Assembly (NCBI RefSeq): GCF_020042345.1 | Contig: NZ_CP083387.1 | Coordinates: 1,860,001-1,924,000 of the forward strand | Length of the DNA: 64,000 bases | DNA from: Arachidicoccus terrestris | Lineage (GTDB): Bacteria; Bacteroidota; Bacteroidia; Chitinophagales; Chitinophagaceae | Direction of reading: 5' to 3' | Part shown: positions 13,118 to 15,506 of the stretch, piece by piece | How positions within the stretch are numbered: position 1 is the first letter of the stretch | How the letters are laid out: each line of letters starts with the position of its first letter | Made by a program: the position numbers and the translations under genes | The notes under the pieces: generated by a model | What the model saw: the letters and a program-made list of their open reading frames with translations, nothing else | Database searches by the model: none | What the model was told of the DNA's origin: nothing

Positions 13118-14424
13118 TGACGGTTAAACCTATAATATACAAATCCATATTATTTCCATGCCTGTCTGTCTGCTGCCTTTGCTTTTCAGGCCATCTTTAT
13201 GCACAGAGTAATATATCCGTCTATTCCATGCTGGGAATCGGTAACATACGTACAGACAGTTATGATTACGGCAGTGGCATGGCCGGTGCAACGATCAGTC
13301 TGAGAGACGGACGCTATATATTAGATGACAACCCGGCCTCCCTCCCCTTTCTGGATGATCATTACTTCGCAATGGAACTCAGTGGCTCCTTTGAATCAAT
13401 CAACTATACCGGCGACCCGATTACAACACCCACCCGCTCCAATCAGGCGCAGTTCCAGCGCTTTACCATGGCAACAAAGCTTACCAAATTCTGGGGTGCT
13501 CCCTGGGGCCTGAAGCAGTTCAGCAGCAGTAACTACAGTCTGTATGGGCAGAAAAATATCATTGGAACCAGTGATTATATTACTACCTATTATGAAGGGA
13601 CCGGCGGTATCAATCAGGTATTCCTGTCCAACGGCTGGTCACTGGGTAAACACTTCTCGGTGGGCCTCAACAGTTCCTATCTGTTTGGCAATATGACCCA
13701 GACAGAATACCTGTATGGAGAGAACTATGTCGGTAGCCAGCTCAATACGTCCAACAGGTTATATTATGCGGGTTTCTATTTCACAGGAGGCCTACAGTAT
13801 CAGGGAAAGATCAGTGATAAATTACTGCTGGGCATTGGTATGACAGCGTCCAGAAATATGACCCTCAAAGGAGACAGGTCCTTATCCATGAGTGCCGGCG
13901 ATCCGGACGAAGGCAGCCCCACCAATATCATCGCAGATTCCTCCCTCGGCTCGACTGCCTTTCGTATTCCCGATATGCTCGCAGGAGGTGTTTCTTTCAC
14001 TTATGATAGGACTTTTACACTGGCCGGCGACTATCAGTACGGCAAATGGGCCGATGCAGGCAATTCCACCAATGGTTACAACTATAAATACAATAACAGC
14101 TCAGGACTCTCCATCGGTATGAGTTACGCTCCCAGAAAAGTCTTTACGTATCAGGGGCAATACGTCGAAGTGGAGAAGTACCGGCTGCAGGGTGGATTTT
14201 ATCTGAATCACGAATATATAAACATGTATGGACAACAAATCTCTGACAAGGGTGTTTCACTAGGTATCGGGCTGTTCTCTAAAAGATCTACCCTAGGCTA
14301 TATGCTGAACCTGCAATATGGTTCCAGAGGCACGACCCTGAATAATCTGATCAAAGAAAATTATTTTAAGATCGGCATCACCCTATCCTACCGGGATCTG
14401 TGGAAAAAGCGCCGGCTCCAATAA
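13114..14424 (+). CDS. Outer-membrane beta-barrel protein (FadL/PorV-like appearance)
   Basis: 436 aa with a signal peptide (SGHLYAQ-S) and a long series of amphipathic beta strands rich in Tyr, Gly and Ser. The early motif YSMLGIGNIRTDSYDYGSGM followed by ILDDNPASLPFL resembles the NPA-containing hatch region of FadL-like barrels. No substrate can be inferred. Overlap of ATGA with the DUF4270 gene makes a two-gene operon. It ends with LGITLSYRDLWKKRRLQ, so it lacks the common terminal Phe. Confidence 0.75.
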   Translation: MMTVKPIIYKSILFPCLSVCCLCFSGHLYAQSNISVYSMLGIGNIRTDSYDYGSGMAGATISLRDGRYILDDNPASLPFLDDHYFAMELSGSFESINYTGDPITTPTRSNQAQFQRFTMATKLTKFWGAPWGLKQFSSSNYSLYGQKNIIGTSDYITTYYEGTGGINQVFLSNGWSLGKHFSVGLNSSYLFGNMTQTEYLYGENYVGSQLNTSNRLYYAGFYFTGGLQYQGKISDKLLLGIGMTASRNMTLKGDRSLSMSAGDPDEGSPTNIIADSSLGSTAFRIPDMLAGGVSFTYDRTFTLAGDYQYGKWADAGNSTNGYNYKYNNSSGLSIGMSYAPRKVFTYQGQYVEVEKYRLQGGFYLNHEYINMYGQQISDKGVSLGIGLFSKRSTLGYMLNLQYGSRGTTLNNLIKENYFKIGITLSYRDLWKKRRLQ

Positions 14425-14527
14425 ACAAATTAAAAGGCCAGTGACAAGCGGGCCATTATCACGTAAGCGCTATTAAGAGTCTCCGGGTTTTCTAAGCGGC
14501 CCGGCGAGAAAATAAGATGTAATGCGG

Positions 14528-14558
14528 GGGGATATTCCTATCTCCCCTATTATTTTTT
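14528..14558 (+). terminator. Weak terminator after the outer-membrane protein gene
   Basis: A five-base G/C stem (GGGGA 14528-14532 with TCCCC 14543-14547) is followed by TATTATTTTTT. Confidence 0.4.
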
Positions 14559-14580
14559 CAGTCTGCAATATAAGTGCAAA

Positions 14581-14619
14581 ATGCAAAAAGGCGCCCTGTA
14601 AGGCACCTTATTTTTGCAT
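14581..14619. repeat. Long imperfect hairpin at the left of a gene-free tract
   Basis: ATGCAAAAAGGCGCC (14581-14595) pairs with GGCACC...TTTTTGCAT (14602-14619), with one mismatch and a three-base bulge. It could be a bidirectional terminator between convergent genes or the left-end hairpin of the structured element that follows. Confidence 0.55.
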
Positions 14620-14638
14620 ATTTATGCTAAGTCTGGTG

Positions 14639-14870
14639 AACTACCCACCTACGCTAAAGCGATGAATGGGCTTCGTGCTTCACAGCGACTTGCTTACTGC
14701 CCAAATGGGTTAGAAGTCTTATTATCGCTCCACACGTGTACTCGCAAGTCCCTTACGAGGTTTTAAGTCTTTTACTGACAAAACGAAGTAAATGTACTTT
14801 GTAAAACAGCCAAATACTTTTGTGCCTTACATCCCACCCACACTACGTGATGAATGGGTTTTACGGCACG
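14639..14870 (+). ncRNA. Structured non-coding element resembling an IS200/IS605 right end / omega-RNA, no tnpB present
   Basis: Two copies of one structured unit lie at 14641-14670 and 14832-14858. Each has CCCA ... ATGAATGGG enclosing a small hairpin. In copy 1 the inner stem is CGC/GCG; in copy 2 it is CAC/GTG, so the pairing is kept while the bases change. Copy 2 sits inside a longer imperfect hairpin from GTGCC (14822) to GGCAC (14869), with TGGGTTTTACGG on its right side. The tract between the copies has no coding potential. The layout recalls the 3' scaffold and right-end hairpin of TnpB-type elements, but this is memory of general appearance, not an alignment. The whole 14425-14906 interval has no gene and lies between convergent genes. 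Confidence 0.4.
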
Positions 14871-14906
14871 TTCTATAAATTCTTTCTTTCAGGAATACTT
14901 TCCCGG

Positions 14907-15506
14907 TTAATCCGCTTCAGCGATCACTTCCTTTACTTCAGGGATCATTCTTTTCATCATGCCCTCGATTCCCGCCTTCAATGTGATCATTGAAGAAGGG
15001 CAACCGCTGCAGCTTCCCTGCAGCATCAGGTTAACGACTCCCTGATTGTAACTTTTGTACTGAATCGCACCACCGTCCATTTCAACGGCTGGCCTTACGT
15101 AGTTATCGAGCAATTCCTTGATTCTTTTAACGATGTCATCATCATCTGCTGCGATCGTATTGCTGGATTCAGGGACAATCTTGGATACTTCTTCCTCATT
15201 GACGATTGTTCCGCCATTTTCTATATACTCTTTGAGAAACTGTTTAACCTGGGGAATCACTTCCTGCCAGTCCTCAACATCGTTTGTTTTCGTAAGGGTT
15301 ACAAAATTACTGGCAATAAACACACTTTTGATAAATGGAAAGCTGAACAATTCCTTCGCTAACGGAGAAGGCCCTGCCATTGTTTCATCCTGAAAATCAA
15401 TACTTTTCCCAGGGTAAAGGAGCTTGTTGGCCACAAATTTCATGGTTGCCGGATTCGGCGTCATTTCTGTATAAATACTGATAATAGGGTTTCCTGTCTT
15501 AATCAT
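14907..15506 (-). CDS. Nfu-type iron-sulfur cluster carrier (NfuN + NifU-C domains)
   Basis: A 199-aa cytosolic Fe-S carrier. The N-terminal Nfu domain is clear (IYTEMTPNPATMKFVANKLL, then FSFPFIKSVFI). The C-terminal NifU domain carries VRPAVEMDGGAIQY and the cluster-binding GSCSGCPSS (CxxC near residue 166). It delivers [4Fe-4S] clusters to client enzymes. It is a single gene, convergent with the outer-membrane protein gene, and has its own promoter box. Start ATG 15506 keeps the whole Nfu domain. Confidence 0.93.
   Translation of the reverse strand: MIKTGNPIISIYTEMTPNPATMKFVANKLLYPGKSIDFQDETMAGPSPLAKELFSFPFIKSVFIASNFVTLTKTNDVEDWQEVIPQVKQFLKEYIENGGTIVNEEEVSKIVPESSNTIAADDDDIVKRIKELLDNYVRPAVEMDGGAIQYKSYNQGVVNLMLQGSCSGCPSSMITLKAGIEGMMKRMIPEVKEVIAEAD

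Follow-up and report, generated by a model that had tools for sequence, protein, structure and literature searches.

The tract between two convergent genes in the window, which is the whole 64-kb stretch analysed here (positions 1860001-1924000 of a single 4.90-Mb contig), almost certainly harbors a miniature, protein-less element of IS200/IS605 type (PATE), in which a left end is fused to a complete right end including a tnpB-derived omega-RNA scaffold. Transcription, mobility and use by TnpB are inferred; the element is probably a PATE that has retained a guide-RNA gene and would borrow both TnpA and TnpB in trans. Its features are gathered in Table 1.

Boundaries and copies of the element

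The tract was bordered on the left by an ORF ending at 14424, without Pfam match, and on the right by the gene of an Nfu/NifU protein (14907-15506, minus strand, PF08712/PF01106). Flanking ORFs and folds confirmed what had been read from the sequence alone, namely a gene-free tract between convergent genes with three hairpins. The lack of a tnpA or tnpB frame nearby was borne out as well: profile searches for PF07282 and PF01797 detected neither gene within the window, the ten PF07282 matches of the genome all lay outside it, and Y1 TnpA (PF01797) found no match anywhere in the genome.

A genome search with 14425-14906 recovered six more near-identical stretches (97-98 %), covering only about 14636-14882, and an additional, shorter right-end match adjoining a truncated tnpB. 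Alignment of the copies uncovered sharp boundaries. On the minus strand, all seven started with AGAACGTGC directly behind TTTAT and closed with AGTTCAC, beyond which the flanks were unrelated. Since the seven copies shared these termini, the element was delimited to 14636-14874 on the minus strand, directly behind TTTAT. The same pentanucleotide was encountered 5' of the left end in related elements with a different left-end sequence.

Three features expected of a PATE were present. The element, with 239 bp, was too short for a transposase, was devoid of a transposase ORF and displayed near-terminal palindromes; its copies (n = 7) had identical termini and no target duplication, only TTTAT, on the left-end side alone, being common to them outside the element; and its ends were homologous to those of elements bearing a Y1 TnpA gene (G003, G215, G407). 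An autonomous IS200/IS605 insertion sequence was rejected, no TnpA or TnpB ORF being found in or near the element.

The sequence-only reading proved right in kind and wrong in orientation and extent, and was therefore partly supported. As the element runs on the minus strand, the long hairpin at 14822-14869, which had been taken for the right end, is the left end. Two of the three hairpins belong to the element (14643-14671 and 14822-14869), whereas the one at 14581-14619 is a flanking terminator outside it, and the proposed extent of 14581-14870 had to be replaced by 14636-14874. The supposed orphan turned out to be one of seven genomic copies. The alternatives that had been offered, a non-autonomous IS200/IS605 element mobilised in trans and a stranded omega-RNA locus with its own guide, were supported together, by seven copies with shared boundaries and by homology of the scaffold to the omega-RNA found at the 3' ends of tnpB. 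An absence of other copies and of any likeness to TnpB-flanking sequences, which would have spoken against that reading, was not borne out: six more copies were found, as were matches of the RNA model R2 (see below) to tnpB right ends.

The two end hairpins resembled each other (repeats D2 and D4). Small sequence variants were observed at several places of the right-end hairpin among the copies of this genome, a variation compatible with decay. The terminator hairpin, scored on the minus strand, displayed a stem at 14609-14588 and a T-rich tail; it stood at once behind the presumed guide, an arrangement likewise displayed by L005 and L082.

Table 1. Features of the miniature element and its immediate surroundings (window coordinates)
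Feature	Position	Strand	Observation
TTTAT target motif, presumed TAM of the empty site	14875..14879	-	5' of the left end in 7/7 copies
Whole miniature element	14636..14874	-	239 bp; left end 14874, right end 14636; seven copies, same termini, unrelated flanks
Left-end imperfect hairpin	14822..14869	-	ssDNA fold -9.2 kcal/mol, z -2.72; homologous to G003 and G215 left ends
TTTG, candidate internal-promoter -33 box	14811..14814	-	Spacing to the -7 position
Degenerate -7 box TTACTTCG	14784..14791	-	Fixed register to GTCAGTA; one base lost in the window copy
Omega-RNA-like scaffold	14636..14779	-	R2 134 bits on the window; tnpB-linked homologues; covariation
Stem-loop 1, CTCGTAAG-GGA-CTTGCGAG	14741..14759	-	98.3 % of cells paired outside the training set
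Two-part stem 2, outer CGTGT/GCACG, inner AGCGA/TCGCT	14674..14736	-	93.3 % and 90.5 % of cells paired
Right-end hairpin	14643..14671	-	Folds; 93.2 % of cells paired on alignment A1
TTCAC right terminus	14636..14640	-	Identical in 7/7 copies
Presumed 16-nt guide CAGACTTAGCATAAAT	14620..14635	-	Flanking DNA; position by analogy with ISDra2 reRNA (PMC8612924)
Flanking intrinsic terminator, adjoining the presumed guide	14581..14619	-	Terminator scan and fold

The omega-RNA-like scaffold and its promoter-like box

The region between the hairpins had been described as non-coding yet structured, and this description held, the structure being indicated by covariation across relatives. The 300-nt region surpassed each of 200 dinucleotide shuffles in folding, whichever strand was taken (z -3.05 on the plus and -4.05 on the minus strand). 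For the 144-nt RNA alone z was only -1.72 and 12 of 200 shuffles were equally good, which is why the claim of a structure is founded on covariation and not on folding energy. The 5' part of the scaffold corresponded to the 3' end of tnpB, and individual folds mostly agreed on stem-loop 1, the two-part stem 2 and the right-end hairpin.

In alignment A1, composed of 11 tnpB-linked and tnpB-less sequences, 92.3 % of cells were paired versus 74.4 % in shuffles, and both sides had changed in 17 of the 26 pairs. As A1 mixed both kinds of sequences, model R2 was trained on tnpB-less copies alone. R2 matched the unseen right ends of several tnpB genes or remnants (L078, 2e-20; L091, 2.5e-19; L027, 5e-19; L104, 8.5e-17; L008, 5.5e-13; L014, 1.7e-7); on 25 other loci derived from TnpB or TnpA, E was never better than 0.015. 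In 15 sequences outside the R2 training set, 84.1 % of cells were paired versus 65.2 % after shuffling, the values for helices 1-3 being 98.3, 93.3 and 90.5 %, with numerous pairs changed on both sides; this alignment was fitted to R2 and leans towards the model, helix 4 is badly aligned in it (52 %) and relatedness inflates its counts. As in TnpB omega-RNAs, sequence and structure were homologous to the RNA at tnpB 3' ends and terminated at the right end. Homology to tnpB 3' ends, with compensatory changes, is thereby established for this RNA.

Nothing relevant was found in Rfam for the whole window at gathering score or for the surroundings of the element at E<=10. A class-level search with R2 under a strict filter gave no new genome, and within the limits of that filter the RNA family is rare or confined. 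No similar DNA was detected by blastn in plasmid and GenBank phage collections, and the right-end pattern occurred in only two records of the genome contig collection, a Chitinophagaceae MAG and a Taibaiella MAG.

Promoters of Bacteroidota recognised by sigma-ABfr have the consensus TAnnTTTG at -7 and TTTG near -33 (PMC7366714). In six loci (L075, L106, L107, L108, L110 and L111) the -7 box TATATTTG kept a constant spacing to the conserved GTCAGTA start, its background being 0.00066 per base in these loci, and in 10 of the 18 copies listed a TTTG or TTG preceded the -7 position by 19-21 nt. The sister copies in the window's genome have TACTTTCG or TACCTTCG at this place. Judged by these boxes, a promoter is likely for the RNA family; the case for the window copy, given its degenerate -7 box, is weaker. 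A sigma-70 promoter scan was negative, as expected for Bacteroidota. The promoter-plus-start pattern was also encountered in 32 stretches of IMG/VR, of which the 27 new ones did not match the RNA model and were therefore dismissed as chance matches of an AT-rich pattern.

TnpB genes, relatives and phage contigs

The only intact related TnpB of the window's genome was encoded at L014. It comprised 369 aa, was full-length by Pfam and was followed by a related right end, for which the model score was modest (34 bits); it is the best candidate partner for a putative use of the element RNA. In the surrounding region (L038, 1410500-1416500 of the same genome) this TnpB adjoined a tRNA-Thr, and the tRNA plus its flank was repeated as a partial copy past the L014 right end. 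A separate TnpB family of about 402 aa (L009-L013), with a different right end, consisted of five near-identical genes, being multi-copy though the genome is without detectable Y1 TnpA. This family was rejected as parent of the element, since the right ends differ.

Full elements were numerous in G003, a sister species of the same genus, with divergent Y1 tnpA (PF01797) and tnpB (PF01385, PF07282), intact and ending in ATGGGTAGTTCAC. G003 matched the left end of the window element at 84-87 %, and right-end matches were found as well; it also possessed its own miniatures of about 330 bp. Both tnpA and tnpB were likewise present in the elements of G215 and G407. At two G003 loci (L018, L019) the left end immediately followed the T run of a terminator-like hairpin, which suggests that such sites are frequent targets. 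The order-wide search recovered from another family, in G498, miniatures with the same architecture as the window element and 82-83 % identity over right end and interior; with the RNA model, seven miniatures were counted there, plus one tnpB-linked copy at a contig end. Two tnpB-less copies of G498 (L101, L103) were strongly diverged and differed in their left ends, which speaks for an old origin or for more than one lineage.

A search with the core pattern uncovered copies of the RNA in eight IMG/VR contigs, two of which carried two copies each (L109/L113 and L112/L115). A head-maturation-protease-like protein was encoded close to the RNA in L106. No convincing left end was detected within 400 nt in L106, L108, L109, L110 and L113 (only 52 nt being available upstream of L113), and the upstream DNA of these five was unrelated. 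TnpB was encoded elsewhere on some of the RNA-bearing phage contigs, and a tnpB remnant on phage contig G783 bore a related right end. Some copies were associated with tRNA genes: in L112 (4826-4942) and L114 (4816-4932) the RNA end abutted the start of a phage tRNA-Met (4750-4825 in L112) inside a tRNA array, an arrangement in which RNase P cleavage would fall exactly at the guide boundary, and the copy L109 (3095-3223, on the contig of L113) lay among the 15 predicted tRNAs of a phage array.

Proposed mechanism, alternatives and known systems

The proposed mechanism was modelled on ISDra2 (PMC8612924) and on a plasmid gene-drive study (PMC11870625). The reRNA or omega-RNA of ISDra2 TnpB comprises about 150 nt from the tnpB 3' end and the right end, with the last ~16 nt coming from the flank (PMC8612924); the present element differs in lacking tnpB and in displaying a promoter-like box where the tnpB coding sequence would stand. 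By analogy, a Y1 TnpA acting in trans would excise the element as ssDNA and insert it behind TTTAT. An internal promoter of Bacteroidota type would drive transcription leftwards, through the right end TTCAC into the flank, and each copy would thereby gain a guide matching its own insertion site in the empty state. A trans-acting TnpB, for instance that of L014, would then cut TTTAT plus guide in sister DNA from which the element has gone, with repair bringing it back. As no Y1 TnpA is detectable in the genome, present transposition is unlikely; RNA-guided retention of the copies is possible. Whether the element RNA is a working guide in trans appears evenly balanced. A broader proposal, to be held tentatively, is that the RNA has become a gene family in its own right, a TnpB guide RNA with its own transcription that would spread in miniature transposons and, in phages, without left ends, and would partner in trans with TnpBs from other loci.

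Homogeneous PATEs of Haloquadratum walsbyi displayed strain-specific insertions though nearly all tnpA genes were pseudogenes (PMC3119063). Like the present copies they are transposase-free, multi-copy and more than 90 % identical, with IS605-type near-terminal palindromes; they differ in being archaeal and in including terminal-only 52-bp forms, too short for a guide-RNA scaffold (PMC3119063). These 52-bp PATEs, known to be guide-less, agree with a rather unlikely explanation by which the window element too is a plain PATE, with a vestigial RNA: TnpA needs the ends only, the scaffold would be kept by the right end and recent ancestry, and no RNA would act. The degraded -7 box in the window's genome, the differences among right-end hairpins and the lack of TnpA, owing to which the copies may be fossils, are equally in line with it. 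Yet helices 1 and 2, unneeded by TnpA, are kept with compensatory changes in the tnpB-less copies of G498, G603 and the phage contigs, and the -7 box persists at loci from which the left end is gone.

Those loci also bear on an improbable alternative, in which the guide-RNA gene has abandoned the transposon life style and, in phages and possibly also in this genome, would direct TnpB of host or phage origin towards retention, competition or regulation. Phage-contig copies that lack a left end and are preceded by unrelated DNA, some on contigs also encoding TnpB elsewhere, speak for it, but the window copy retains both ends and a seven-fold spread typical of a transposon. It is hardly conceivable that the tract is a regulatory or repeated sequence between genes, whether REP/BIME-like or belonging to the 3' regions of its neighbours, as its position between convergent genes and beside a terminator might suggest: the contexts of the copies are unrelated, their ends are defined and homologous tnpA/tnpB elements exist, and the core claim of this reading was refuted by the seven-copy alignment. 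A PATE that would borrow TnpA and TnpB in trans is the preferred reading.

PATEs as such are already known, one of them with nearly the same anatomy. According to the available part of its description, the PATE-like IS605 element of Halanaerobium hydrogeniformans, about 271 nt long, displays a left-end hairpin, no tnpA, the last 58 nt of tnpB and a full right end (PMC7290912). It is described there as one copy, in contrast to the seven found here, and guide RNA and promoter are not considered in that part; the present element has an omega-RNA supported by covariation, and a promoter-like box is common to its relatives. The halobacterial sotRNAs RF02656 and RF02657 are also omega-RNAs of IS200/IS605 but overlap tnpB (PMC12558985); the Rfam search of the window gave no match to either family. 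In the literature accessible to us, no stand-alone or tnpB-less guide-RNA lineage was described, earlier mention of guide-bearing PATEs being possible. A tnpB-less lineage with covarying guide-RNA scaffold and promoter-like box, in bacteria and phage contigs, hence appears undescribed.

PATEs are usually regarded as bare transposon ends. If the proposed reading is true, a PATE lineage that has preserved a covarying TnpB guide-RNA scaffold and a promoter-like box in bacteria of two families as well as in several phage contigs would parasitise both halves of the IS200/IS605 cycle, TnpA for moving and TnpB for retention. It would constitute a natural trans-acting TnpB system, and would raise the question whether TnpB takes guides from unlinked miniature copies.
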